DNA of 64,000 nucleotides from Defluviimonas sp. SAOS-178_SWC (GTDB lineage: Bacteria; Pseudomonadota; Alphaproteobacteria; Rhodobacterales; Rhodobacteraceae): NCBI RefSeq assembly GCF_039830135.1, contig NZ_CP156081.1:2466001-2530000 (forward strand), in the 5' to 3' direction. A program made the position numbers and the translations under genes. The notes under the pieces were generated by a model. It worked only from the letters and a program-made list of their open reading frames with translations. It did no database searches and was not told the DNA's origin. Positions 1 to 15,448 of the stretch are shown here, piece after piece; within the stretch, counting starts at the first letter, position 1; each line of letters opens with the position of its first letter.

Positions 1-366
1 TGCTTGACCGAAAGGTGTTTCAAGGACTTCCTGCTCTCGCGAATTCTCAAAATCCGAGCGGTGCGCGAGAGCGAAATATCGGCCGGTGATGATTACGACT
101 GGCATTCCGAAGTCACGCTGGAAGTCGCTCCACACCCCGACCTATCGGAGACGCAGGCGAAAGTCATCGCGCTCGACTACGGGATGCGGGATGGCAAAGC
201 TAAGATCAATGTCCGTCGCGCGCTCCTTTATTACGCGCTAAGGCGGCTGGGATTAGATACTGACCCGGCGGCCAGGGAACCGCAGGATCAGCAGATAGTG
301 CTACTGAATCGGGATAAAATTCACGAGAGCAAACAATTGAGCTCCGAGAGACAAGGTTTCCAATGA
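1..366 (+). CDS. WYL-domain regulator, C-terminal fragment (partial)
   Basis: The frame is open from the first base of the window, so the start lies upstream and only about 121 C-terminal residues are visible. They resemble the C-terminal end of WYL-domain regulators: a beta-rich stretch (VTLEVAPHPDL), then a region with RRALLYYALRRLGL, ending near QQIVLLNRDKI. WYL proteins are DNA-binding ligand sensors that often head phage-defence operons. Its TGA overlaps the ATG of the helicase gene (ATGA at 363-366), so it is probably translationally coupled and may regulate the downstream cassette. The DNA-binding and WYL signature residues lie outside the window, so the family call is moderate. Confidence 0.6.
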   Translation, partial: CLTERCFKDFLLSRILKIRAVRESEISAGDDYDWHSEVTLEVAPHPDLSETQAKVIALDYGMRDGKAKINVRRALLYYALRRLGLDTDPAAREPQDQQIVLLNRDKIHESKQLSSERQGFQ

Positions 367-3300
367 AAGCGTTTGAATTCGACCATCAATTGATAAATGC
401 CTACGAGCACTTCTCGCGTTCATTCAGCGCAATCCGAGCGCCTGATCTGAAATCCGAGATCGACGCCCAGTACGACGCCGGAAAATTCTGGCCGGATGCC
501 CTCTTGTCACTGAACCCGCGCTTCATGGCCGGGCCGACGGTCGACGAGCTCGTTGCCACGGGTGATCTTGATGAGGGGACGGGCAAGGTCTTTCGGTTTG
601 GCACGACACCACTACGCTTTCATCGGCACCAAGCCGAGGCAATTGCGAAGGCGAAGCAAAGCAAAAGTTATGTCGTCACTACCGGCACAGGTTCGGGGAA
701 ATCCCTGTGCTTCTTCGTACCGGTTGTCGATGCAATTATCCGCGCGCGGCGCGCAGGAAAGCCGCGGCGCACAACGGCAATCATCGTCTACCCCATGAAC
801 GCACTGGCAAATAGCCAGATGAAGGAAATTGACAAGTTCATCGCCGGTTCCGGTTTGCCAGATAATCTCAAGCCGGTGGTCAAGCGCTACACGGGTCAGG
901 AAAGCCGAGAAGAACGCGAGCGCATCGCTGCCAATCCGCCAGATGTTCTCCTGACCAACTACATGATGGCGGAACTGCTTCTGACGCGTCAGGACGAACT
1001 GGACTCGAAAGTCGTCTCGAACGCGTCCGGTCTCGAGTTCATCATTCTCGACGAACTCCATACCTATCGCGGGCGCCAAGGTGCCGATGTCGCGGTCCTC
1101 GTTCGACGCCTGCGGGACAGGTGCTCGCCGGACAAGGAGCCAATCTGCATCGGGACCTCGGCAACGATGGCCTCCGAGGGATCGGACGAGAGCCGCGCGC
1201 TTGCTGTCGCGAAGGTAGCGTCTCGTCTGTTTGGCTCCGACATTGGCCCGGACGCGGTCATCGACGAGTCTTTGCAGCGCGCGACCGATGACACCCTGAA
1301 GACCGAGCACGTCCTTGGCGCTTTGAAGACGGCCCTGACTCAGCCTTTACCGGACGCACTCGATGACGAAACACTGAGGCGCCATCCGCTCTCGGTGTGG
1401 GCCGAACTCGAACTCGGATTGGACGATGGGCTTGAGCTTCGCAGGAAGAAGCCGATCCCTTTCGAAGAGGCCGTCGAAAAGCTCTCTCTGGCCAGTGCGG
1501 TCGATGCCGAAACCTGCCGAGACTATCTCGAAAAATTCCTGACCCGGGTAAGCCTGCCGGAGCATGAGCGCGGCGGCGCGAAGGACGGAGCCTTTCTCGC
1601 CTTCAAACTCCACCGTTTCATCTCCGGTGCCGGTGAAGTCTTTACGACACTCACAGCCAGGCCGCGTCGGATCCTTCTTGAAGGGCAGCTCGAGGACCCC
1701 GAAGCCCCTGGCAACCGCCTCTACCCCACGCGGTTCTGCCGAAACTGTGGTCAAGAATATCATGTCGTGACGAAGGTCGACGATGATGGGAGTTTGCGCT
1801 TTCTGCCCCGAAGCATCGACGACACTCCGCTCGACACTGACGAAGACGAGGTCGCAGGGTATCTCTGTCCGGTGACGCCCGGCGATACTGACTTTCAGTT
1901 CACTGGCGAGCTTGAGGGTTACCCCGAAAGCTGGCGAGAAGAGAAAAACGGCATTGAACGGCTGAGAGGGTATCGCAAGAAGCGTATGCCGGTATCCTAC
2001 GTCGTCGGTGCTGATGGTCGCCATGGAGCGGGCGGAAACGATTTCTGGTTCATCCCGGGAAAGTTCGCGTTCTGCCTATGCTGTCATGACGAACCGACGC
2101 AGGGGATGCGCGAACGCAGCAAGTTGGCGGGGCTCTCCGGCGAAGGGCGAAGCTCGGCAACAACCTTGCTCGTAGCCAGCGCCCTGGAGTGGATGAACAA
2201 ACCTGGCAGCGGCGTACCCGAGACGAAGCGGAAGCTTTTGGGGTTCACGGATAACCGTCAGGATGCAGCCCTGCAGTCTGGCCATTTCAATGATTTCCTC
2301 TTCGTAAGCCTGTTGCGCGGAGCCATCCTCCGCGCGGTCATTTCTGCTGGCGCAGGTGGGCTCGCAGAAGACGAGTTCGGCCTGCAGGTTGTGAAGGCGC
2401 TCGGCTTTACTGCCGCCAACAAAGAGGCGCGCCAGCATTGGCTACTGGATTCGAATGCTGGTGCCATCATTCGCGAAGACGCCCAGCGGTCGCTCGCAAA
2501 GGTTTTAGCCCATCGTGTTTGGACGGACCTGCGTCGCGGTTGGCGCTTCACCAACCCCAGCTTGTCTGTCCTGAACCTGATCGACGTGAGTTTCCTCGGC
2601 CTCGAGGAAATCTCTGAAGATCGCGAGCGCTTCATGGCCATCCATCCAGCGCTGGGAGACCTCGGCCTCGAGCAGCGGCAGGCAATTCTCAAGGCAATTT
2701 TGTCCGCGATGCTCGAGGGCCTGGCTGTTCAGACCGAAGCCTTGGATCTGACTGTCCTCGACGGCGTGGCCCAGAAATCCCGAATGCTGCTTCAGGCACC
2801 TTGGGCAATCGACCAAAAGGAAAATCCGCGAGCGCGGTCCTCACTTGTCCTGCGCGCGGGCAGCAAGAACGTCGTCACGCTGCGTGAAGAACAAACGCTT
2901 CTCCGGGCAGGTCCGAATTCGCGGATCGCACGGCTCGTGAACCGGAAATCCGTTCTCGGCACGAAGCTGAACAAGGATGAGTACTACGAGTTCATGGAAG
3001 GGATGCTTGCCTTCCTGAGCGACGAAGGGCTGCTGGTGCCAGTCGAACTCGATAGCGATGTGACGGGCTGGCGCCTGTCACCATCTGCGGTTCGGCTTGT
3101 GCCTGGACCGGCCCTCGATGATGAAACCCACCGCGGCAACCGATATTTCCACGACCTTTACACCGCGATTGCCAGTGACCTTGGCGCTGGGCGTAGTTCC
3201 TACTGGGGGCTGGAGGGACGCGAGCACACGGCTCAGGTTTCGCAAAAGCAGCGGGAATGGCGGGAATGGCGGTTCCGTTTCGAGCAGGACGACATGGACC

Positions 3301-5540
3301 ATCTCGCGACCTCGGAGTACCGAACGGAAATTCGGGCGACCGGCGAGTCCGATCGGTTCCTGCCCGCGCTGTTCTGCTCTCCGACTATGGAACTCGGCGT
3401 TGATATTTCTGCCTTGAACGCCGTCTACCTGCGCAACGTACCGCCTACGCCGGCGAATTACGCGCAGCGCGCTGGTCGTGCCGGTCGATCGGGTCAGGCG
3501 GCGGTTGTCGTGACCTACTGCGCCTCGGGGTCTCCGCATGACCAGTATTTCTTCGAGCGGCGCAACGATATGGTTGCCGGTGTCGTGCGGCCGCCAGCAC
3601 TCGACATCACGAATGAAGAGCTGGTCCGATCGCACCTGCACGCGGTGTGGCTGGCGGAAGCGAAACTGGCGCTTTCTCCCGACATCCCAGAGATTCTGGA
3701 CCTTCACGGGGATAAATTCCCGCTGAAGGAGGACGTCCTAGCGGTCATCTCGAAACCCTCTCTGGTTTCGCAGGCACGGGGGCCGATGGCGCGTGTCTTG
3801 AAGCAGATTCTGGCGTCCGACGGAGGGCAAACCCCGATCTGGATGGACGATCCGGACGAGTTCGTTCTTCACACGGCCATGAATGCCCCAAAGGAGTTTG
3901 ACCGCGCCTTCGACCGTTGGCGGGAGCTTTATAGCTCTGCCAGGACGCAATTGGCAGAGGCCAACAAGCGTTCGGAGATCACAGGGCTCTCGGGAGCCGA
4001 CCGGCGCAAGATCAAGGCCGCACAAATGCAGGCCCAGGATCAGATCGCCATCCTCGAACAAGGCAAAGCCTCGAATGGCTCCGACTTCTATTCGTATCGG
4101 TATCTGGCAACAGAGGGCTTCCTGCCCGGGTACAACTTCCCCCGCCTGCCGCTCTACGCATTTGTCCCTGGCGAAGGTAAGACGGGCTCATTCCTTTCCA
4201 GAGCCCGCTTCCTCGCCATTTCCGAATTCGGCCCGCGCAGTCTGATCTATCATGAAGGCCGTGCCTACCGAGTCATGAAAGCCAAACTGCCCCCCGAGGT
4301 GCGTCAGGGCGACGGATCGGAATTGGCGACCAAGGATATCTACATGTGCTCCAACTGTGGCGCATCGCATGAGGGCGAGGTCGAGCGTTGCCATGGGTGC
4401 AACAACCACATGGCGGGTGAGGTCCCCATCAAGAAGACCCTGCGCATCGATAACGTCGAGGCCGCCCCGACTGAGCGCATCACGGCGAACGATGAAGAGC
4501 GCGTTCGGCAGGGCTTTGACATCCAGACCGTCTTCTCCTGGCCGAAGAAGGATGGGCAGGTCCAAGTGACCAACGCCAAATTCGTCTGTGGCGAGACTTC
4601 GCTCTTGGCCCTGCAATATGCCAACAGCGCAGAAATCAGCCGACTGAACAAGGGCTTGAAGCGCCGAAAGGACCAGACGGTCTTCGGTTTCCACATCGAT
4701 CCGAGGTCCGGATATTGGGCGAAATCTGACGACGAGGACAGCGACACGGACGTCCCGCCGGACGTGGTCAAGCCGGTTCGCATTGTCCCGATTGTCCGCG
4801 ACAGAAAGAATGCCCTGTTGTTCCGCTTCGAAAAGCCAGAGCAGTATGAGCCCGAGACGATCGCGACGGTTCAACATGCGTTGCTGCGTGGAATCGAAGT
4901 GGTTTTCCAGTTGGAAGAAGGCGAAATCCTCGGTGAACCGCTGCCCGCGAGGGACAACCGTCGCGCAATCCTTGCCTACGAGGCAACGGAAGGCGGCGCC
5001 GGCGTGCTCACGCGCCTGATTGATGACGGTAAGGCAATCAACGAGGTGGCGAAGACCGCACTTGGTCTGATGCACTTCGAGAATGTGGATGCTGCGATTG
5101 CGGCGGGTGATGCGGATCTGTTGCAGGAGAAGAAAGACGGAAGCTGTGTTCGCGGCTGCTACCGTTGCCTGCTGTCCTACTTCAACCAACCGGACCATGA
5201 GCTGATCGACCGCTCGAGCCCGGAAGTGGCGCAATTCCTGATCGATCTTGCACGCGGCACAATTTCCCTTGCTGCGAAGCCGACTGCTGGAACGGTGGCA
5301 TCACCATGGCTTGAGGCATTCAGCGCAGCAGGCATTCCCCAAGTCGATACGATGCCCGCGAGCTTTGGCGGGCGCGAATTCGAGTTCGTTTGGCGCGCAT
5401 TCGCGGTTGCCGCAACGACCGCTGACCTGACAGCAGAAGCTGAGGCAGACGCGATGAACAAGGGCTGGGTCGTTTTTGGATTGCCTTCGACTCCGTCGGA
5501 AGGACTGCCAGATGGCTTCATGAAGAATTTTGAAGGTTGA
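363..5540 (+). CDS. DEAD/DEAH helicase fused to DUF1998 (MZB) zinc module, DISARM/Druantia-like
   Basis: A 1725-residue superfamily 2 helicase. Walker A GTGSGKS is at about 108-114, the Walker B variant DELH at 230-233 and motif III GTSAT near 264. The C-terminal helicase lobe has LGVDISALN and QRAGRAGRSGQ near 1030-1060. Several cysteine pairs suggest zinc sites: CRNCGQ near 460, CLCC near 570, and CSNCG with CHGC near 1330. The end carries the DUF1998/MZB signature ATEGGAGVLTR followed by CVRGCYRCLLSYFNQ. In DISARM these activities are split between DrmA (helicase) and DrmB (DUF1998); DruE of Druantia is also a giant DUF1998 helicase. Here one polypeptide carries both. The ATG overlaps the previous stop. 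A role in DNA translocation or phage restriction is inferred from family and neighbours. Confidence 0.8.
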   Translation: MKAFEFDHQLINAYEHFSRSFSAIRAPDLKSEIDAQYDAGKFWPDALLSLNPRFMAGPTVDELVATGDLDEGTGKVFRFGTTPLRFHRHQAEAIAKAKQSKSYVVTTGTGSGKSLCFFVPVVDAIIRARRAGKPRRTTAIIVYPMNALANSQMKEIDKFIAGSGLPDNLKPVVKRYTGQESREERERIAANPPDVLLTNYMMAELLLTRQDELDSKVVSNASGLEFIILDELHTYRGRQGADVAVLVRRLRDRCSPDKEPICIGTSATMASEGSDESRALAVAKVASRLFGSDIGPDAVIDESLQRATDDTLKTEHVLGALKTALTQPLPDALDDETLRRHPLSVWAELELGLDDGLELRRKKPIPFEEAVEKLSLASAVDAETCRDYLEKFLTRVSLPEHERGGAKDGAFLAFKLHRFISGAGEVFTTLTARPRRILLEGQLEDPEAPGNRLYPTRFCRNCGQEYHVVTKVDDDGSLRFLPRSIDDTPLDTDEDEVAGYLCPVTPGDTDFQFTGELEGYPESWREEKNGIERLRGYRKKRMPVSYVVGADGRHGAGGNDFWFIPGKFAFCLCCHDEPTQGMRERSKLAGLSGEGRSSATTLLVASALEWMNKPGSGVPETKRKLLGFTDNRQDAALQSGHFNDFLFVSLLRGAILRAVISAGAGGLAEDEFGLQVVKALGFTAANKEARQHWLLDSNAGAIIREDAQRSLAKVLAHRVWTDLRRGWRFTNPSLSVLNLIDVSFLGLEEISEDRERFMAIHPALGDLGLEQRQAILKAILSAMLEGLAVQTEALDLTVLDGVAQKSRMLLQAPWAIDQKENPRARSSLVLRAGSKNVVTLREEQTLLRAGPNSRIARLVNRKSVLGTKLNKDEYYEFMEGMLAFLSDEGLLVPVELDSDVTGWRLSPSAVRLVPGPALDDETHRGNRYFHDLYTAIASDLGAGRSSYWGLEGREHTAQVSQKQREWREWRFRFEQDDMDHLATSEYRTEIRATGESDRFLPALFCSPTMELGVDISALNAVYLRNVPPTPANYAQRAGRAGRSGQAAVVVTYCASGSPHDQYFFERRNDMVAGVVRPPALDITNEELVRSHLHAVWLAEAKLALSPDIPEILDLHGDKFPLKEDVLAVISKPSLVSQARGPMARVLKQILASDGGQTPIWMDDPDEFVLHTAMNAPKEFDRAFDRWRELYSSARTQLAEANKRSEITGLSGADRRKIKAAQMQAQDQIAILEQGKASNGSDFYSYRYLATEGFLPGYNFPRLPLYAFVPGEGKTGSFLSRARFLAISEFGPRSLIYHEGRAYRVMKAKLPPEVRQGDGSELATKDIYMCSNCGASHEGEVERCHGCNNHMAGEVPIKKTLRIDNVEAAPTERITANDEERVRQGFDIQTVFSWPKKDGQVQVTNAKFVCGETSLLALQYANSAEISRLNKGLKRRKDQTVFGFHIDPRSGYWAKSDDEDSDTDVPPDVVKPVRIVPIVRDRKNALLFRFEKPEQYEPETIATVQHALLRGIEVVFQLEEGEILGEPLPARDNRRAILAYEATEGGAGVLTRLIDDGKAINEVAKTALGLMHFENVDAAIAAGDADLLQEKKDGSCVRGCYRCLLSYFNQPDHELIDRSSPEVAQFLIDLARGTISLAAKPTAGTVASPWLEAFSAAGIPQVDTMPASFGGREFEFVWRAFAVAATTADLTAEAEADAMNKGWVVFGLPSTPSEGLPDGFMKNFEG

Positions 5541-5541
5541 T

Positions 5542-8313
5542 ATGACTGTGAATTTTACTCCTGGAGATCTTGTCAGAGTGCGCGGCCGTGAATGGGTTGC
5601 CTTGCCGACACCCGGCGAGGGCCTGCTCGCCCTGCGCCCCCTCTCGGGCAATGAAAACGACATCGTGGTTCTTGCTCCGGATCTCGAGCTTACACCGGTA
5701 GAAGCCGCTCGTTTCGACCTGCCTGACGATGCGCGCACGACAGTGCAGTCCAAGGCGGCCCTTCTTGCCGACGCGTTGCGACTGACCCTCCGCCGGGGGG
5801 CAGGCCCGTTCCGGTCCGCCGCACAGCTTGCTTTTGAGCCTCGGACCTACCAGCTCGTCCCGCTTCTCATGGCCCTTCGGCTTCAGGTCCCGCGTCTGTT
5901 GATTGCCGACGATGTTGGTATCGGAAAGACCATCGAAGCGGGTCTGATCCTGCGCGAACTGATGGATCGCGGAGAGGTCGATGCGTTTTCGGTTCTCTGC
6001 CCTCCGCACCTCGTGGACCAGTGGATCACTGAATTGAAGGATCGCTTCGGGATCGATGCCGTTGCCGTCACCTCCGGGACTGCCGCGCGTCTGGAGCGCA
6101 ATCTCCCATTGGCGCAAACCCTTTTCGATGCCTATCCCTTCACGGTGGTCAGCCTTGACTACATCAAAGCCGAAAAACGCCGGGATGGGTTCGCCAGGGC
6201 CTGCCCGGATTTCGTTATCGTCGATGAGGCACACGCCTGCGTCGGGACGCACAAGGGAAAGCAGCAGCGCTTCGACCTGCTCCAAGGCCTAGCACGCGAT
6301 CCTGAGCGTCGGTTGATCCTGCTGACAGCCACGCCGCACTCCGGGGACGAAGAGGCATTCGCTCGGCTTCTGTCGCTGATCGACACGGAATTCGGGACCG
6401 TCAACTTCGACAACCAGAAATACCGCGAGCGCCTTGTCAGGCACTTTGTTCAGCGGCGGCGCGTCGACCTGGTGGAGGGCGACTGGGATGAGAACCGCTC
6501 GTTCCCCAAGCACGAGACGACCGAATACTCGTATCGTCTGAACGACGAGCATCGGGCCTTCCAGGAAGCCGTACTTGATTACTGCTTCTCGGTCGTGTCT
6601 CGGGCTGGGGACGCGCAAAGGGATCGCCGGCTTGCGTTCTGGGGCACTCTGGCGCTGATGCGATGTGTCGGATCGTCACCCGCAGCCGCAATGAGCGCGT
6701 TGCGAAACCGGGCTTCCAATGAAGACGACCGCCTCGAGCCGCAGATTTACGACGAAGATGGCGATGATGAAGACGCCGTGGACATCGAGCCAAACACCGT
6801 CTTCTCAAATGATCCCGCTCTCCAAGGGCTGCTCGACAAGGCCAGCGAACTTCTGACGGCCGAGGATCCCAAACTGAACGCCCTCATCAAGGCCCTCAAA
6901 CCCTTGATCAAAGACGGCGCTAACCCTGTCGTGTTCTGCCGCTACCTCGCCACGGCCGAACACGTGAAGGAAGGGCTTCGTAAGGCTTTCCCCAAGCTGA
7001 ATGTGCAGGCCGTGACCGGTGAATTGACGCCGGACGAACGTCGCGATCGCGTGGCGGAAATGGTGGCGGAAGAAGGTGCCGCCACCGATCAGCGCATCCT
7101 TGTCGCCACGGATTGCCTGTCGGAGGGGATCAACCTTCAGCAATTGTTCGACACCGTAATCCACTACGACCTCTCCTGGAATCCGACGCGCCATCAACAG
7201 CGCGAAGGTCGCGTGGATCGTTTCGGGCAACCCGCCGAACTCGTTCGCTCGATCATGATGTTTTCGCCCGACAGCGCCATCGACGGTGCCGTCTTGGACG
7301 TCATTCTTCGCAAAGCCGAGGAAATCCGTAAGGCGACGGGCGTGACTGTGCCTCTCCCCGATGAGCGGGGACCGGTCACCGATGCGCTGATGGCTGCAAT
7401 GATGCTCCGCCGTGGCGGTGGCAGCCACAAGCAGCTGACGCTGGACCTGCAGATCGGCGACGGTATCCAGGTGATGGAGACCCGCTGGCGCGATGCAAGC
7501 GAGAACGAAAAGCGGTCACGCGCCCGGTTTGCACAAAACGCCATGAAGCCGAGTGAAGTCGCTCCTGAATGGGACAAGGTGAAGTCCCTGCTTGGATCGC
7601 CAGCGGAAACGCTCGAATTTCTCGAGCGCGCGATGTCTCGGTTCGGGGTGCCCCTCGAGAAGAAGAAATCGCTGCAGTTCGCCCACGTGCATGCGCTTCA
7701 GGATAGCCTCAAGGAAAAGCTGGAGCAGCGTGGGCTGAAGGGCTCTCTGAGACTGGCCACGCAGGAACCGGTGCCCTCAGGCGCTTCACTTCTGACCAGA
7801 ACCCATCCGCTGACATCGTCCCTGGCAGAAAGCCTGCTTGAAGCCTCTCTTGACACCGAAGCGCTGCCGGATCTGGGCATCGGTCGTGTCGGGGCCTGGC
7901 CGAGTGCCGCCGTCACTCAGATGACGCGTGTCGCGCTCTTGCGTATTCGCTACAAGCTGACGGTTCATGCACGGCGTGAGCGCCTCCTGCTGGCAGAGGA
8001 AGCCGCCCTCGTTGCCCTCGACAGCAATATGGTGATCGCCTCTGGCAGCGAGGCGCGCGCGTTGCTTGCCTCTCCCGCGACTGCTGATCTTGCGCCTGTC
8101 GCCCGCGACCGGATGATCAATACGGCGAAGGCGGCCCTTCCTGACCTGCTGGGCGGCCCTATTGCCGATTTCGTGCAAAAGCGTGCCGCGGAGCTGGTTG
8201 AAGACCACGCCCGCCTTCGTGCTGCCGCCGGGTCCGCGTCGCGTGTCAGTGTCGAGCCGATCATTCCCCCAGACGTCATCGGCCTCTTCGTTCTTGTTCC
8301 GGGGGAGGTGTAA
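5542..8313 (+). CDS. SNF2-type helicase/ATPase, DrmD-like
   Basis: A 923-residue SNF2/RapA-like ATPase. Walker A lies in DDVGIGKT (about 123-130), the DEAH box in IVDEAHAC, motif III in LTATPHSG, and motif VI in HQQREGRVDRFGQ. An acidic linker (DEDGDDEDAVDIE) separates the lobes. I chose the ATG at 5542 because GAAGG lies just upstream and it follows the helicase stop by one base; an in-frame TTG at 5530 is less likely. Proteins of this class occur in DISARM class 1 (DrmD) and in other modification-linked defence systems, where they probably translocate on DNA. The family is clear; the defence role is inferred from position between the DUF1998 helicase and the methyltransferase. Confidence 0.82.
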   Translation: MTVNFTPGDLVRVRGREWVALPTPGEGLLALRPLSGNENDIVVLAPDLELTPVEAARFDLPDDARTTVQSKAALLADALRLTLRRGAGPFRSAAQLAFEPRTYQLVPLLMALRLQVPRLLIADDVGIGKTIEAGLILRELMDRGEVDAFSVLCPPHLVDQWITELKDRFGIDAVAVTSGTAARLERNLPLAQTLFDAYPFTVVSLDYIKAEKRRDGFARACPDFVIVDEAHACVGTHKGKQQRFDLLQGLARDPERRLILLTATPHSGDEEAFARLLSLIDTEFGTVNFDNQKYRERLVRHFVQRRRVDLVEGDWDENRSFPKHETTEYSYRLNDEHRAFQEAVLDYCFSVVSRAGDAQRDRRLAFWGTLALMRCVGSSPAAAMSALRNRASNEDDRLEPQIYDEDGDDEDAVDIEPNTVFSNDPALQGLLDKASELLTAEDPKLNALIKALKPLIKDGANPVVFCRYLATAEHVKEGLRKAFPKLNVQAVTGELTPDERRDRVAEMVAEEGAATDQRILVATDCLSEGINLQQLFDTVIHYDLSWNPTRHQQREGRVDRFGQPAELVRSIMMFSPDSAIDGAVLDVILRKAEEIRKATGVTVPLPDERGPVTDALMAAMMLRRGGGSHKQLTLDLQIGDGIQVMETRWRDASENEKRSRARFAQNAMKPSEVAPEWDKVKSLLGSPAETLEFLERAMSRFGVPLEKKKSLQFAHVHALQDSLKEKLEQRGLKGSLRLATQEPVPSGASLLTRTHPLTSSLAESLLEASLDTEALPDLGIGRVGAWPSAAVTQMTRVALLRIRYKLTVHARRERLLLAEEAALVALDSNMVIASGSEARALLASPATADLAPVARDRMINTAKAALPDLLGGPIADFVQKRAAELVEDHARLRAAAGSASRVSVEPIIPPDVIGLFVLVPGEV

Positions 8314-8315
8314 TC

Positions 8316-11300
8316 ATGGCCCGCAAACCAATCACCGATATGTCCGCGTGGCCGTCGCTGAGCCTCGAAGGCAACCTGATCGCGCCAGCGATGATCGCAA
8401 AGATCGATCAGCGCCATGCACCCGAGCAATCCCCCGAGGAATACGGGGTTCGCAAAGGCCTACAGATCCGCGAAGAAATCGCCACCGCCTTCCGCGTAGG
8501 CCAATCGCATTTCGACGCCTTTGTAAAAATCGAGCAACCCTCGGCCGCCGCCACCTCGCGTTTTATCGCCGATTTCTTCAAGGAAACCTTCGGGTACAAC
8601 GACCTCGCGGTAGCGGCGGCACCGATCGCGCTGATCGCGTCCGACCGTGTGCCCGTTGTCGTCGTGCCGCCGTCCGAGCTGCTTGATCGCCGCAGCCCGA
8701 CGCTCTCGACGGACAGGTCGCGCTCTCCGGCCTTTGCCCTTCAGGACCACCTGAATGATCGGGACGAGGCCCTTTGGGGTATTGTGACCAACGGGATGCA
8801 GTTGCGCCTCATGCGCGACAATGCCTCGCTGACCCGTCCGGCCTATATCGAGGCCGATCTGGCGCAGATGTTCACCAACGAGGACATCGCGTCCTTCGCG
8901 GTGCTCTGGCTCTTGATCCACCGCACCCGCTTCGGCGCGGCAGACACCCCCGCCACCGATTGCCCCCTCGAACGCTGGCGCGACGCTGGCTCCAAAGAAG
9001 GCGAAGCCGCGCGTGATCGCCTGGCCGGTCAGGTCCAGCTGGCCCTCAAACTGCTCGGCTCGGGCTTCCTCGAGGCCAACCCCGACCTCGCCGCGAAACT
9101 GCATTCCGGCGAAGTGAACCTGACCGAATGGTTCAACGAACTCCTGCGTCTCGTCTACCGCCTGATCTTCCTCATGGTGGCCGAGGACCGGAACCTCCTT
9201 CACCCGGAAAAGGCCAAACCCGAGGCCCGCGCCCTCTACGCCCAGGGCTATTCGCTCCAGTCGCTGCGCAAGCAATGCTACCGCGCCGCCACCTGGGACA
9301 AGCACCATGACCGCTACGAGGGGGTGAAGATCGTCTTCCGCGCCCTCACGCAGGGCCAGCCAGCCCTTGCGCTGCCCGCCCTCGGCGGCCTCTTTGCCGA
9401 GGACCGTCTGCCCGACCTCGAAACCGCCCGCCTGCGCAACCGCGCCTTCATGGAGGCGCTCTACCGCCTGTCCTGGCTCGCCGACAAGAACGGCATGGTC
9501 CCGGTCAACTGGCGCGCGATGGAGACCGAGGAACTGGGTTCGGTCTACGAATCCCTCCTCGAATTGCAGCCGCAGCTGGGCGACGACGGCAAGACGCTGG
9601 TCTTCGCCTCCGAGGCGGCCGAGCAGAAGGGCAACCAGCGCAAGACCACCGGCTCCTACTACACGCCCGACAGTCTCGTTCAGGCGCTGCTCGATACCGC
9701 GCTCGACCCCGTGCTCGACAAGACCGAGGCCGAGGCGGACGATCCCGCCAAGGCGCTGCTGAAGCTTTCGATCATCGACCCCGCCTGTGGCTCCGGCCAC
9801 TTCCTGCTGGCCGCCGCCCGCCGCATCGCCACGCGTCTCGCGCGCATCCGGGCCGAGGGCACGCCCTCGCTCGCCGACTTCCGCCATGCCCTGCGCGATG
9901 TCGCGCGCTGCTGCATCCACGGGGTGGACCGCAACCCGATGGCGGTGGAGCTGACCAAGGTCGCGCTCTGGATCGAGACGGTGGACCCCGGCCTTCCCCT
10001 CGGCTTCTTCGATGCACAGATCCGCTGCGGCGATGCGCTGCTGGGGGTGTTCGATCTGCAGGTGCTGCAGGACGGCATCCCCGATGCCGCCTACAAGCCG
10101 TTGACCGGCGACGACAAGGAAACCGCGAAATACTACCTCAAGGCCAATCGCGATGCGACGGCGGGGCAAGGCGGGTTCGACTTCGGCACCGGTCAGGCGT
10201 CGATGCCCGCAATGAAACCGCTGGCGCTGGATTTCTCGGGCTTCCGCGACCTGCCCGAGGATACGGTCGAGCAGATCGGCGCCAAGGCCAAGCGGTTCAA
10301 GGAACTGCGAAAGGGGCAGACCTTTGTTCGCGCCAAGGCGGCTGCGGACCTCTATGTGGCTGCTTTCCTGCTGCCCAAGGTGGGCGGCGCACCGGCTGGG
10401 GCATCGGCCCGCACCGTGCCGACGACCGAGGAGCTGTGGATGGCTCACAATCAGGGCAAGATGCGCCAGGCGATGGTCGAGGCGCCCAAGGCCGCCCGCA
10501 ACGCCCGCGCCCTGCATTGGCCGCTCGAGTTCCCCGATGTGATGCAGCGCGGCGGGTTCGACGTGGTGCTGGGCAACCCGCCGTGGGAACGGATCAAGCT
10601 GCAGGAGCAGGAGTTTTTTGCTTCCAGGTCACCTGAGATTGCCAATGCGCCGAACAAGGCTGCGCGGGACAAGCTGATCAAGGCAATGGAGAAGGCTGAC
10701 ACTGGCAGCGCAGATCGCGCTCTTTTTGACGCCTTCACCGAGGCGAAGCGCGATGCTGAGGCGACCGGCGAGTTCGTCCGCGTGCCGGGCGAGGATGACG
10801 GGCGCTTTGCGCTGACCGGGCGGGGCGACGTGAACACCTATGCTCTGTTTGCCGAACTGTTTGCAAACCTCGCGCGGCAGCGGGCTGGGGTCATCGTGCC
10901 AACAGGGATTGCCACCGATGCCACCACGGCCCCTTTTTTCGCGCATCTGGTGGAGCACAAGCGACTGGCGAAACTGGTGGACTTCGAGAACTCGAAACCC
11001 ATCTTCCCGAGCGTACACCGCAGCTTCAAGTTCGCTCTCTTGACCCTAGGCTACGACGAATCTACTGCCCATTTCGCCTTCTTCCTAACTGAGCCTGCAC
11101 AACTGGCCGAGCCCGAGCGCAACTTCATCCTCGCGCCCGCCGAAATCGCCGCGATCAACCCGAACACTAAGACTGCGCCTGTTTTCCGCTCCCGGCGGGA
11201 CGCCGAGTTGACCGCCAAGATTTTTCGCAACTCGCCCATACTGATCGACGAGGGTAAGGGACCGGCAGGCAACCCTTGGGGTGCGTATTATCTAAGATTG

Positions 11301-12203
11301 ATCCATTTTGGTGACCATACCTCAGAACTGTATGACCAGGCGCGTGCCTGTAATGAGGGATTTGTCCGTGATGGACAGATTTGGACATCTTCGTCCGATA
11401 CGCTCCTGCCTGTTTGGGAAAGCAAACTGACAAATGCTTATTGTCTGCACTACGCGACGTTCAAAGATGGCGACAAAACCGAAGCACTTTCTGAGAATAC
11501 GAAGCCGGAACTGCAAACCCATAGATATTGGGTCTCAAAAGAATTCTTTCTGGGTCTGATGGAGAAATATCCACGCCAAGCAAATTGGCTTCTTGCATAT
11601 CGTGATGTAGCAAGAGCCACGGACGAAAGGTCTGTCATTTCTCTTGCGCTCCCTTTTGAACCTGCTTCGATCAAACACCCGACCCTCGGTTGGAACATTG
11701 CCCACCCTGGCCATGCACTTTTGGCAAACTTGAATGCTTTGCCTCTAGATTTTGCAGCAAGACAAAAGATCAGCGGCATTTCGCTAAGTTTTTTCGTTTT
11801 GAAGCAGCTCCCGGTTCTGCCCCCCGACTTCTACACCGAACCTCGCCTCGCCTTCATCACCCCAAAGGTGCTGGAACTCACCTACACCTCGCACAGCCTC
11901 GCCCCCTTCGCCCGCGATCTGGGCCACGACGGCCCGCCCTTCACCTGGGACGAAGACCGCCGCGCGCTCCTCCGCGCCGATCTCGACGCCTTCTACGCCC
12001 GCGCCTACGGCCTGACCCGTGACGAGCTGCGCTACATCCTCGACCCCGCCGACGTGAAGGGCCCCGACTACCCCTCGGAAACCTTCCGCGTCCTCAAGGA
12101 AAAGGAAATCCGCCAGCACGGCGAATACCGCACCCGCCGCCTCGTCCTCGAAGCCTGGGACCGGATGGAAGCCAACGGCGAATTCGCAGCGATGGGGATG
12201 TGA
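8316..12203 (+). CDS. Eco57I/PglX-like N6-adenine DNA methyltransferase (possible type IIG-like)
   Basis: A 1295-residue protein with the class gamma adenine methyltransferase motifs: SAM-binding motif I DPACGSGHF near residue 488 and catalytic NPPW near 753. The N-terminal 200 residues include ALWGIVTNGMQLRL, a signature of large Eco57I/MmeI-like enzymes. I see no convincing PD-(D/E)xK there, so cleavage is not claimed. The C-terminal third should hold target recognition. A GGGAGGTG ribosome binding site precedes the ATG two bases after the previous stop. The likely job is to mark host DNA so the helicase and nuclease proteins spare it, as DrmMI does in DISARM. The DNA from about 11,280 to 11,800 is visibly more AT-rich than the flanking GC-rich codons, suggesting exchange of the recognition domain. 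Confidence 0.82.
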   Translation: MARKPITDMSAWPSLSLEGNLIAPAMIAKIDQRHAPEQSPEEYGVRKGLQIREEIATAFRVGQSHFDAFVKIEQPSAAATSRFIADFFKETFGYNDLAVAAAPIALIASDRVPVVVVPPSELLDRRSPTLSTDRSRSPAFALQDHLNDRDEALWGIVTNGMQLRLMRDNASLTRPAYIEADLAQMFTNEDIASFAVLWLLIHRTRFGAADTPATDCPLERWRDAGSKEGEAARDRLAGQVQLALKLLGSGFLEANPDLAAKLHSGEVNLTEWFNELLRLVYRLIFLMVAEDRNLLHPEKAKPEARALYAQGYSLQSLRKQCYRAATWDKHHDRYEGVKIVFRALTQGQPALALPALGGLFAEDRLPDLETARLRNRAFMEALYRLSWLADKNGMVPVNWRAMETEELGSVYESLLELQPQLGDDGKTLVFASEAAEQKGNQRKTTGSYYTPDSLVQALLDTALDPVLDKTEAEADDPAKALLKLSIIDPACGSGHFLLAAARRIATRLARIRAEGTPSLADFRHALRDVARCCIHGVDRNPMAVELTKVALWIETVDPGLPLGFFDAQIRCGDALLGVFDLQVLQDGIPDAAYKPLTGDDKETAKYYLKANRDATAGQGGFDFGTGQASMPAMKPLALDFSGFRDLPEDTVEQIGAKAKRFKELRKGQTFVRAKAAADLYVAAFLLPKVGGAPAGASARTVPTTEELWMAHNQGKMRQAMVEAPKAARNARALHWPLEFPDVMQRGGFDVVLGNPPWERIKLQEQEFFASRSPEIANAPNKAARDKLIKAMEKADTGSADRALFDAFTEAKRDAEATGEFVRVPGEDDGRFALTGRGDVNTYALFAELFANLARQRAGVIVPTGIATDATTAPFFAHLVEHKRLAKLVDFENSKPIFPSVHRSFKFALLTLGYDESTAHFAFFLTEPAQLAEPERNFILAPAEIAAINPNTKTAPVFRSRRDAELTAKIFRNSPILIDEGKGPAGNPWGAYYLRLIHFGDHTSELYDQARACNEGFVRDGQIWTSSSDTLLPVWESKLTNAYCLHYATFKDGDKTEALSENTKPELQTHRYWVSKEFFLGLMEKYPRQANWLLAYRDVARATDERSVISLALPFEPASIKHPTLGWNIAHPGHALLANLNALPLDFAARQKISGISLSFFVLKQLPVLPPDFYTEPRLAFITPKVLELTYTSHSLAPFARDLGHDGPPFTWDEDRRALLRADLDAFYARAYGLTRDELRYILDPADVKGPDYPSETFRVLKEKEIRQHGEYRTRRLVLEAWDRMEANGEFAAMGM

Positions 12204-12206
12204 GCG

Positions 12207-13322
12207 ATGCAAGATGAAGTGATTGTCATAGAAGTGCCCGTTCTCGAAGAAGTCGCGAACCCCGAAATCGAGGCCGTCGCTGCCGAGTTTGAAGAGGTGA
12301 AGGCCGACGTGGCGGCGGGGCGGGAACCTTCGCGCAGCGTAAGAGAGCTGCTTCGCTGGTTTGGCGCGCGCCGCAGGCGTGGCGGAGTCGTCGAGCGCAT
12401 CGAAGCAGAACTCGAAGCCGCGGGGCTGCGGACCGATCCTCATTTCACGACAACATGGATCGATGCGCCCGTGATCTTCAAGAAGCGAGAAGCGCAAGCA
12501 CCCGCACCTGAGGCCGCTCCTGTTGTCGCTGCCCAGCCGGGCGCCGAGGCGGTGGAGGCTGCCAAACCAGCAGATGTCGCGGACATGACCCACCTCGTGC
12601 GCATGCTCGAGGCTGCGAACCGCGAGGTGATTTCGGTCAATCCGCAGGATCCGATCGAACGGGCCGTCACGCTGATGCTGGCCTATGACTTTTCACAACT
12701 CGCCGTCATGACCGGGCCACGTGATCTGAAGGGTGCGATCAGCTGGAAGTCCATCGGAAGCAGGCTCAGCCAACGAAACGCGTTGACCAATGTAAGTGAT
12801 GCCATGGAGCAGGCGACAGAGGTCTCTGACGCAGACTCGCTCTTTGAGGTCACGAAGACCATCATTCAGCGGGACTATGTTTTCGTCCGAGCGGCTGCAG
12901 ATCGAAAAATCACGGGGATCGTGACGGCTACCGACCTCAGTGAACAGTTCCAAGGTTTGTCGGAGCCGTTTCTTCTGTTGGGTAGGATCGAAAACCAGAT
13001 CCGGCGGCTTATTCAGGATGTGTTCGACGTCGATGCCCTGCGCGCGGCTTGTGATGACAATGATCCAGATCGGAAGGCCGCAGTCACGAAAGCGTCACAG
13101 CTGACCTTTGGCGAGTATCAGAGAATTTTCGAGAAGGAGGAAAACTGGGCTCAGCTCGGGTTCGTCGCCTGCAGGAAAACCTTCTGTAAAGAGCTCGATG
13201 AGGTTCGTAAGCTTCGAAACGAAATCATGCATTTCCACCCCGATGTGATCGAAGACGGCGATTTCGAGCAGCTTCGCAGGTTTTCGCGTCTTCTTGAGCA
13301 GCTTGATCAACTGGCCGGCTAA
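12207..13322 (+). CDS. CBS-domain protein with HEPN-like C-terminal domain
   Basis: A 371-residue protein three bases after the methyltransferase stop. Residues about 40-90 look like a small basic helical domain, followed by an Ala/Pro/Glu-rich linker. Residues about 140-250 read as a tandem CBS pair (VISVNPQDPIERAVTLM, then TEVSDADSLFEVTKTI and ITGIVTATDL); CBS pairs bind adenine nucleotides in known families. The helical C-terminus (about 250-371) contains LRNEIMHFHPD, with R337 and H342 forming an RN-x3-H arrangement like the Rx4-6H catalytic motif of HEPN RNases. A nucleotide-sensing toxin or effector is an inference. It could instead be a non-catalytic scaffold. I do not know a named family for the whole protein. 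Confidence 0.65.
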   Translation: MQDEVIVIEVPVLEEVANPEIEAVAAEFEEVKADVAAGREPSRSVRELLRWFGARRRRGGVVERIEAELEAAGLRTDPHFTTTWIDAPVIFKKREAQAPAPEAAPVVAAQPGAEAVEAAKPADVADMTHLVRMLEAANREVISVNPQDPIERAVTLMLAYDFSQLAVMTGPRDLKGAISWKSIGSRLSQRNALTNVSDAMEQATEVSDADSLFEVTKTIIQRDYVFVRAAADRKITGIVTATDLSEQFQGLSEPFLLLGRIENQIRRLIQDVFDVDALRAACDDNDPDRKAAVTKASQLTFGEYQRIFEKEENWAQLGFVACRKTFCKELDEVRKLRNEIMHFHPDVIEDGDFEQLRRFSRLLEQLDQLAG

Positions 13323-13343: not shown

Positions 13344-14108
13344 ATGACCATGATCGAGATGCCCCAATCCTTCGTGACCCGCCAAGAATGCGACAAGGTC
13401 GCGTTCCAGAATGGCTTCCGCCGGTCTCATGGCGAGGCGGATGGCTGGAGGCGCTACAGCTCGACGACGGCGCAAGGCTCGATCTGGATGGCGCATGATG
13501 AAGATGGCGGATGGTTGTTGGCCATCGACCATACCGGCGTGGCAGAAGAACTCGACGCAGCAGCGGCCCCGGTCGAGGGACCAGGCGTTGTGCGCTACAC
13601 ATTTACGACCCTGGGCCTGCTCTATGCCTTGATGCCCCGTGTCTACCAGTTGGCCGCCAGCCTTCCCAACGCGCCGCTGGCGCAATTCCAGGCCAAGGTG
13701 AAGGATCTGCCAACATCTACGGAGGCCGAACGCCTCGTCGTTCAACGTATTGGTCAGGATGTATTTCGATCGGGACTACTGGAATATTGGCAAGGGCGTT
13801 GCCCACTGACGGGTATCGCTGATACCCCGCTACTTCGCGCTTCGCATATCGTTCCCTGGAAGGATTGCCCAAGCGATGCAGAGCGCCTCGATGTTCACAA
13901 TGGCCTGTTGCTCTCGGCACTCTGGGATGCTGCGTTTGACCGCGGCCTTGTCAGCTTCGATGACACAGGCCATCCATTGTTTTCGCCAGCCCTCGGAGCG
14001 GCCGCCCGCGATGAACTGCGCTGGCATCAACCAGTTAGATTGACGGATAGTCATCGCGGACGCCTTGCCTGGCATCGCGCAAATCTTTTCAAAGAAAAAT
14101 CAAAGTAA
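13344..14108 (+). CDS. HNH endonuclease (HNH_2-like)
   Basis: A 254-residue protein with a C-terminal HNH nuclease fold: CPLTGI, then RASHIVPWKDC, then LDVHNGLLLSALWDAAFD (about residues 154-200). This matches the layout of HNH_2 restriction-type nucleases, where the histidine of SHIVPW and the HN pair bind metal and activate water. The first 130 residues have no domain I recognise and may recognise DNA or a partner. It starts 21 bases after the CBS gene on the same strand, so it is probably the last gene of the operon and a candidate cleavage subunit for the system. The substrate (unmodified or modified DNA) cannot be read from the sequence. Confidence 0.78.
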   Translation: MTMIEMPQSFVTRQECDKVAFQNGFRRSHGEADGWRRYSSTTAQGSIWMAHDEDGGWLLAIDHTGVAEELDAAAAPVEGPGVVRYTFTTLGLLYALMPRVYQLAASLPNAPLAQFQAKVKDLPTSTEAERLVVQRIGQDVFRSGLLEYWQGRCPLTGIADTPLLRASHIVPWKDCPSDAERLDVHNGLLLSALWDAAFDRGLVSFDDTGHPLFSPALGAAARDELRWHQPVRLTDSHRGRLAWHRANLFKEKSK

Positions 14109-14187: not shown

Positions 14188-15024
14188 TCAGTGGAAGCTC
14201 GCCTGAAACGCCGTCGCTGTGAGGGACACGTGGGCATTCAGTGGCGGGCGAAGCTCAAAGGCCTTGGGTTCGCGTGAGAAATTCCAGAGCCGGAACAGGC
14301 ACCATTCCGAACGCCGCTCCTCCGCGACGGCCAGTTCGTTGCGAGTGATATGGAAGGGCGTGCGCTCCCATCCGTTCGCCGTCTTCACCTCGATCAGCCG
14401 CGGCCGCCCGTCGGGTTCGAAGCTCGCGATGTCGTAACCCGCACCGTCGCCTTCTTCTTCGGAGACCCAGATCACCTTTCGCGCGAGGTCATCACGACCA
14501 GCCGATCGGAGTTGTGCCCGCTCATGTTTCAGCATTCGCTCTTCGCCGGCGCGGCCAAGCGCTCGATTTCGCTCGTCCCGAGCCGCAACGTCGAATTTGC
14601 GCGCAACGCGCAGCACCTGCTCCAGCTCGTGCGGCGGCAGTTGGTTTGAGAGTGTGGGAGGCGGTCCAACCCAGATCTGGGACGTTTCACGGAGGCCGGT
14701 GCCTTGCGGCGTTTCTGCCACGCGGGCTAGCCAAGATGGGTTCGCCTTTAGCCAGCGGACCACTGCATCTTCCAAGGCCATCTGGAAATTGAATGCAGGT
14801 TTGTAGCCGGGGATCCGATCTTCGCCGAGCCCGATCAGAACCGCGCTGATGTTTTGGTGTTTGAACTCGACAGATCCTTCGGACCGATTGTTCAGCAGAG
14901 ACAGGAGTGCGCGACGATGCTCAGCCTTGCTATAAGAGCGCCCGGAAACATCGTCGGCGAGCATTGCGAAGTAATCCGCGACAATCAGATCGTTCTCGAT
15001 GTCCGTCCACGCCCCATTCGACAT
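14188..15024 (-). CDS. DUF3883 domain protein with PD-(D/E)xK signature
   Basis: A 278-residue protein convergent with the HNH gene. The C-terminal half carries the DUF3883 pattern: a helix with GRAGEERML (E161/E162), then GYDI with D198, then IEVKT with E212 and K214. This E...D-(x)n-ExK arrangement is that of restriction-like nucleases. The N-terminal half (YSKAEHRRALLSLL... FKHQNISAVLIGLG) resembles the lead part of many stand-alone DUF3883 proteins. The family is common in defence islands, fused or adjacent to helicases and methyltransferases. It faces the main operon, so it may be an independent unit or have its own promoter near 15,030-15,100. The ATG at 15,024 has only a weak ribosome binding site. 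Confidence 0.72.
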   Translation of the reverse strand: MSNGAWTDIENDLIVADYFAMLADDVSGRSYSKAEHRRALLSLLNNRSEGSVEFKHQNISAVLIGLGEDRIPGYKPAFNFQMALEDAVVRWLKANPSWLARVAETPQGTGLRETSQIWVGPPPTLSNQLPPHELEQVLRVARKFDVAARDERNRALGRAGEERMLKHERAQLRSAGRDDLARKVIWVSEEEGDGAGYDIASFEPDGRPRLIEVKTANGWERTPFHITRNELAVAEERRSEWCLFRLWNFSREPKAFELRPPLNAHVSLTATAFQASFH

Positions 15025-15358: not shown

Positions 15359-15448
15359 TGGCGGAGAGAGAGGGATTCGAACCCTCGAGACGGTTCCCCG
15401 CCTACACACTTTCCAGGCGTGCGCCTTCGACCACTCGGCCACCTCTCC
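15359..15448 (-). tRNA. tRNA-Ser(GGA)
   Basis: A 90-nt class II tRNA including an encoded CCA. The acceptor GGAGAGG pairs with the 3' strand next to the G discriminator. The anticodon loop is CTGGAAA (anticodon GGA) on a CACGC/GTGTG stem, a long variable arm follows, and the T loop is GGTTCGAATCC. Its 3' end points at the defence island. Confidence 0.97.

Follow-up and report, generated by a model that had tools for sequence, protein, structure and literature searches.

A 64,000-nucleotide stretch of the Defluviimonas sp. SAOS-178_SWC genome (contig NZ_CP156081.1, positions 2,466,001 to 2,530,000 of the forward strand; this whole stretch is referred to as the window) harbors a cassette of five genes oriented in the same direction and separated by -11, 2, 3, and 21 bp. 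The host genome comprises two contigs (4.34 Mb). The fourth gene of the cassette is assigned by sequence to the DS-11 family of anti-phage proteins, and the best reading of the comparisons given below is that it constitutes an exchangeable cargo of an ARMADA Type I-like cassette and not an obligatory arm of it. The genes of the cassette are as follows.

363..5540, forward strand: first gene, YprA/DruE-like helicase with an MZB domain, 1725 amino acids (PADLOC DruE1, 261 bits; Pfam DEAD, Helicase_C, and MZB)
5530..8313, forward strand: BrxHII/RapA/DrmD/DpdE-like SNF2 helicase, 927 amino acids (PADLOC DpdE, 646 bits; DrmD, 266 bits; BrxHI/HII, 187 bits)
8316..12203, forward strand: PglX/DrmMI-like N6-adenine methylase, 1295 amino acids (PADLOC DrmMI, 249 bits; Pfam Eco57I and N6_Mtase)
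12207..13322, forward strand: DS-11-family CBS-HEPN gene, 371 amino acids (NF053863 match)
13344..14108, forward strand: HNH endonuclease, 254 amino acids, bordering the slot downstream (Pfam HNH_2, 43.6 bits, cut-off 21)

The NCBIfam model NF053863 (DS11_antiphage) matched the product of the fourth gene with 369.2 bits against a cut-off of 260, with model positions 1-305 covering residues 46-363. The protein is predicted to consist of a small N-terminal domain, a CBS pair, and a C-terminal HEPN RNase domain, with the following positions in the window.

12276..12491, forward strand: N-terminal domain, residues about 24-95 (structure model; weak EAD7 match)
12591..12941, forward strand: CBS pair, residues about 129-245 (Pfam CBS; fold comparison)
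12690..12692, forward strand: codon of F162, the equivalent of Y157 in the E. coli protein (alignment)
12942..13319, forward strand: HEPN-like helical domain, residues 246-371 (structure models; VIA list; HEPN_Swt1)
13215..13232, forward strand: RNEIMH motif, R337 to H342 (sequence; conservation)

The initial annotation, made from the sequence alone, had placed a CBS pair at about residues 140-250, followed by a helical C-terminus with the RNEIMH motif, and both were found in the 371-residue open reading frame (ORF). It had also stated that no defence component of such a layout was known by name, which was wrong, because NF053863 represents DS-11, a named and validated system, and a 2013 study had already pointed out CBS-HEPN fusions as potentially ligand-controlled RNases (PMC3710099). 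The presence of a CBS pair and a predicted HEPN-type RNase domain, a layout already described for defence, is well supported. Pfam CBS was matched in all 55 family members, and G237, T240, and D243 of the second CBS repeat were invariant among them; T240 and D243 were also kept in 85/85 loci. The position matching Y157 was aromatic in 84 of the 85 loci (Phe in 60, Tyr in 24, and Cys in one). HEPN proteins, recognized by title or recall, made up nine of the first 11 rows of the VIA list for the C-terminal domain, and HEPN_Swt1 was matched in three of the 55 members. Structural modeling positioned R337 and H342 (Rx4-6H) at the end of a helix spanning residues 323-341. Non-conservation of these two residues, which the initial annotation had regarded as speaking against its proposal, was looked for in the 85 loci; R337 was kept in all of them and H342 in 84. 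The remaining locus, L007 (9974-11053), carries a natural DS-11 variant with Tyr replacing H342, beside a fragmentary methylase in a cassette that looks to be decaying.

The predicted order of helices and strands in the N-terminal domain resembles that of a winged helix. EAD7 (Pfam PF19960) scored 21 bits in the window protein, below the gathering cut-off of 32, and was matched at E ≤ 0.01 in 4 of the 55 members. A shared EAD-type adaptor was considered and rejected, the N-terminal profile showing no clear match outside DS-11 among the collected loci and the window. Among its 87 matches there, 84 carried the RN...H motif, and the other three were the DS-11 with Tyr in L007, an N-terminal piece of DS-11 in L033, and a match at E 0.05 in L068. 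The match to the Geobacter-type relatives (L075, L080, L081, and L084) begins at residue 113-117, and these therefore seem to be devoid of the N-terminal domain; an ORF of 1470-1475 amino acids lies upstream in all four, and PADLOC models did not match its L075 copy at E 1e-20.

The search for homologues of the window protein yielded 335 at E ≤ 1e-3 out of 7995 candidates scored, the nearest with a species name being from Niveispirillum fermenti (94%). PADLOC-DB (2023) returned only a weak match to Csx1 (E 0.034). No match was found in phage records at E 1e-5, and viral contigs contributed one DS-11 locus (L004).

DS-11 was found by DefensePredictor as a one-protein anti-phage system of E. coli with CBS and HEPN domains, in which the Y157A substitution in the CBS part and mutations of the HEPN catalytic residues abolish defence (PMC13092281). 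A 365-residue E. coli relative, WP_000257686.1, was found by tblastn. Residue 157 of this protein, located in the CBS part, is the Tyr within HDYSQL, and its RNxxxH motif comprises R330 and H335; on that basis, it is considered to be DS-11 itself or closely related to it. It was present at ≥99% identity in 127 of 5,426 E. coli genomes (126 covering at least 80% of the query), and in one strain its neighborhood showed it alone, next to an integrase. The window protein resembles DS-11 in the CBS pair, the HEPN RNxxxH motif, the aromatic residue at the Y157 position, its similar length (371 against 365 amino acids), and its score above the curated cut-off; over residues 131-370, it shares 43% identity with the E. 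coli relative. It differs in being located inside an ARMADA-type operon and not alone. An anti-phage activity of the window protein would follow by analogy with DS-11.

The three genes upstream fit ARMADA Type I in content and order, with a YprA-like helicase followed by a BrxHII-like helicase and a PglX-like methylase (PMC12458937). The YprA homologue was nearest to DruE by profile scores (DruE1, 261 bits; DpdJ, 85; DrmA, 56), and the NCBIfam DrmD model scored 292 bits against the 927-residue SNF2 helicase, short of the cut-off of 610. No Pfam match at E ≤ 0.1 (sequence level) was obtained for the Vsr nuclease that the ARMADA helicase is expected to carry at its C-terminus, and the last 146 residues of the YprA-like helicase gave no PDB sequence match at E ≤ 0.1. 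Unlike ARMADA Type I, the window cassette has a variable cargo slot and an HNH gene downstream of the methylase; the main text of the ARMADA paper mentions HNH a single time, among the references, and HEPN nowhere (PMC12458937).

The slot of the window was set against those of L004-L018, which had been collected by means of DS-11, and of a second group collected by means of the second helicase. This second group consisted of 15 of 614 matching plasmid records, taken from the best-matching with repeats skipped, and five more genomes of 385 sampled in the class. Junction lengths were extrapolated from the tblastn ends. The helicase-helicase junction measured -16 to +5 bp in 25/25 cassettes, and the helicase-methylase junction measured -28 to +35 bp in 26/27, the exception being L107, where it holds a VapBC pair. 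The methylase-HNH junction exceeded 700 bp in 20 and was ≤127 bp in 4 of 24 measurements, 11 of which (window included) belong to the DS-11-based collection. Of the three junctions, the two upstream are nearly always closed and the methylase-HNH one is a variable slot. Among the 13 helicase-found cassettes measured across the slot, nine were filled without DS-11 and four were empty (L087, L100, L107, and L112). Three further loci (L108, L111, and L114) end inside the methylase, and no HNH gene was detected downstream of the methylase in L089, L103 (where an IS21 element is present), L109, and L113.

The slot contents of other strains were diverse, and several of these proteins match defence models. 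SMC-like proteins similar to LmuB were recognized by score in L086 and L110; L086, L102, and L105 carry proteins annotated as SMC, and those of L101 and L104 are alike at the N-terminus. These SMC-like proteins are about 650 amino acids long, and together with HNH they could form a Lamassu-like module. Other cargo included GmrSD in L110, a HEC-03A/B-like pair in L106, a UvrD-like protein in L088, and a 274-residue ORF of unassigned family in L085. HD and DarG-like genes were found beside DS-11 in the slot of L013, and an M78 peptidase-like gene in that of L008. The helicase was detected at E ≤ 1e-150 in 6 of the 385 sampled genomes, and DS-11 was present along with it only in the window's own genome.

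Sequence identities between cassettes showed that the history of DS-11 differs from that of the cassette. Between the window and L005, DS-11 was 95% identical, the second helicase 80%, the methylase 77%, and HNH 66%; between the window and L014, the corresponding values were 57, 82, 77, and 65%. In trees of seven cassettes, the helicase joined L005 with L008 (100/99) and DS-11 joined the window with L005 (90/99). In the approximately unbiased (AU) test, the DS-11 data rejected L005+L008 (p 0.0016), and window+L005 was rejected by the helicase data (p 8e-62) and the HNH data (p 0.0005); these p values are exploratory because the clades were chosen after the identities were known. The methylase gene terminates in the following segment.

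11830..12203, forward strand: methylase 3' end, fragments of which precede DS-11 genes elsewhere

These last 374 methylase bases were 94-95% identical between the window and L004, L005, and L014, and 88-90% identical over 336-358 bases to L008, L010, and L110, the last of which holds other cargo. Nucleotide identity between cassettes was about 80-98% at the methylase 3' end and in parts of the catalytic region, and about 30-70% in the region 10730-11830, as measured in 100-base windows at about 10900-11800; this region is probably a swapped target-recognition domain. Remnants of the methylase tail were also found outside cassettes. In the Thioclava loci L015, L016, and L018, which are near-identical and count as one event, a 25-residue remnant lies directly before DS-11; 54/75 nucleotides of it matched in L016, the best other place reaching 37. 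In L006 (Loktanella), a DS-11 that is 94% identical and devoid of a cassette is preceded at the exact place by 40/60 nucleotides of the methylase tail, against 30 at the best of 20,914 other places; this remnant is weak as a protein match (E 0.27). A second, damaged tail was observed in L008 and L012 between DS-11 and other cargo or the true methylase end. Nine of the 14 genome loci with at least 54% identity (L005-L018) were in a cassette, four carried a remnant only, and one (L011, with 535 upstream bases covered) showed neither. We infer from these patterns that DS-11 moves between cassettes by recombination near the conserved methylase 3' end.

Altogether, 80 of 144 genome loci were taken in. 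The co-occurrence of the gene with its three upstream neighbors, proposed as a check in the initial annotation, held for the nine cassette loci among the close relatives. None of the 66 more distant loci showed an ARMADA-type cassette, a result that rests on an ORF caller which missed some genes in GC-rich loci, such as DS-11 in L005. In L027, L032, L046, L060, and L076, this caller did yield low-scoring matches (48-73 bits) of the SNF2, methylase, or helicase type. A PADLOC IIG-like restriction enzyme lies directly before DS-11 in L046 (24-bp gap; Pfam Type_ISP_C) and L040 (1-bp gap); in L027 and L060, a gene intervenes between the two. An SNF2 helicase precedes DS-11 in L046 and L027. Placement after a restriction enzyme arose in more than one kind of cassette. 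In two loci of Phycisphaerae-type metagenome-assembled genomes (L046:3059-9754 and L027:2227-9177), the SNF2 helicase and a IIG/type ISP-like enzyme are found together before the DS-11 relative. The upstream neighbors of more distant DS-11 genes (29 of 41 scanned) belonged to families of 1-3 members each as listed, largely of general metabolism (ThiC, MlaA), with single AbiEii and TIR matches and restriction-type families of at most two members each; therefore, many DS-11 genes appear without restriction company.

It is rather probable that the window gene encodes a DS-11-type, nucleotide-gated HEPN RNase carried as an exchangeable, autonomous backup that moves by recombination at the methylase 3' end. 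The CBS pair would bind an adenine nucleotide and, by homology with DS-11, infection would raise a nucleotide signal that alters the CBS dimer. This change would activate cleavage of RNA by R337 and H342 and halt phage growth. The gene would ride between the methylase and HNH of the ARMADA Type I-like cassette, pass from one such cassette to another through recombination close to the 3' end of the methylase gene, and most likely act as an autonomous second line of defence sharing operon expression and mobility; both its independence from the cassette and the nature of its signal are inferred. Backup nucleases, HEPN proteins included, are lodged in BREX-related operons, and the arrangement resembles the auxiliary effectors of BREX and related systems, where HEPN, HNH, GmrSD, and other nucleases lie within or beside the helicase/methylase operon (PMC12839542). 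It differs from these in that CBS and ARMADA are absent from the main text of that description (PMC12839542).

A functional tie to the cassette may exist, as a backup or as a guard. If the gene were a guard, the methylase/helicase proteins would keep DS-11 silent and their inhibition by a phage would release it, as with PrrC in EcoprrI; we hold this to be unlikely, though worth retaining tentatively. PrrC carries an ATPase domain and is not known to have a CBS pair. The position of DS-11, which starts 3 bp past the methylase stop and ends 21 bp before HNH, recalls the RNase PrrC, whose gene lies inside an operon for DNA restriction and encodes an anticodon nuclease that the restriction enzyme keeps sequestered (PMC3874165). 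The DS-11 relatives that follow other restriction enzymes (L046 and L040; one gene off in L027 and L060) are also consistent with a guard. Against it, E. coli DS-11 protects as a single protein (PMC13092281), its E. coli relative lies alone beside the integrase, the 94% identical DS-11 of L006 is without a cassette, and restriction-type families are scarce among the 29 distant upstream neighbors. It is equally doubtful that recombination at the methylase 3' end exchanges suicide or restriction modules of unrelated kinds in a dedicated ARMADA Type I slot and that the DS-11 clade residing there is a guard fired through its CBS pair. Were this so, the PrrC principle would be extended to a nucleotide-sensing RNase.

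The initial annotation had proposed that the protein is the effector arm of the modification/helicase cassette. In that case, the CBS pair would sense a nucleotide that the cassette makes or releases, and cassette defence would require DS-11. The tight operon agrees with this, as does the fourth gene of ARMADA Type II, which is essential and has a RelE-like RNase domain; the Type II cassette, when tested, gave direct, non-abortive protection (PMC12458937). However, no synthase of a nucleotide signal turned up in the family scans of the cassette genes, which revealed domains of the helicase, methylase, and HNH types. An obligatory arm is improbable because cassettes with an empty slot exist; the 13 helicase-found cassettes were either empty (four) or filled with other cargo (nine), and DS-11 accompanied the helicase in one of six sampled genomes. 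The separate history of DS-11 and the solitary E. coli relative (one strain) point in the same direction. Hence, the earlier interpretation stands for the CBS-HEPN RNase layout and not for an obligatory place in the cassette. A CBS-regulated housekeeping protein or inactive HEPN protein merely located near defence genes is more improbable still, for although inactive HEPN families exist (PMC3710099) and L007 carries the H342Y variant beside its fragmentary methylase, the motif residues are kept in 84-85 of 85 loci, the equivalog match is to a validated defence family, and several slot proteins of other strains match defence models.

The window protein adds one more member to the DS-11 family, here nested in a restriction-like cassette with interchangeable modules at the methylase-HNH junction. 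The layout was already known, and it is the slot position that seems to be new; no literature description of an ARMADA cargo slot with methylase-tail remnants was found, the ARMADA supplements aside. The slot offers a simple rule for finding defence genes, namely, to inspect what is located between methylase and HNH in ARMADA Type I; the tail remnants hint at how slot modules leave and enter.

The surroundings of the cassette contain further genes of interest. About 5.5 kb before the window, an OLD-like ATPase/TOPRIM gene is followed by a UvrD-like helicase gene, forming a Gabija-like pair (L118:10499-14550; C2:2456499-2460550). A repeat of the tRNA-Ser attachment site was sought in the 60 kb before the window, and the one 14-base match, at 2.6 kb, was not convincing. 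Downstream of the cassette, a NOV_C protein encoded on the reverse strand (window 14188-15024) matched the PADLOC candidate PDC-S36 with 423 bits, and tRNA-Ser(GGA) follows its gene, also on the reverse strand (15359-15448); the island may end near these two genes. A DUF2924 gene and a large serine recombinase lie about 1 kb before the cassette (L118:17193-19338) and are possible mobility genes of the island.
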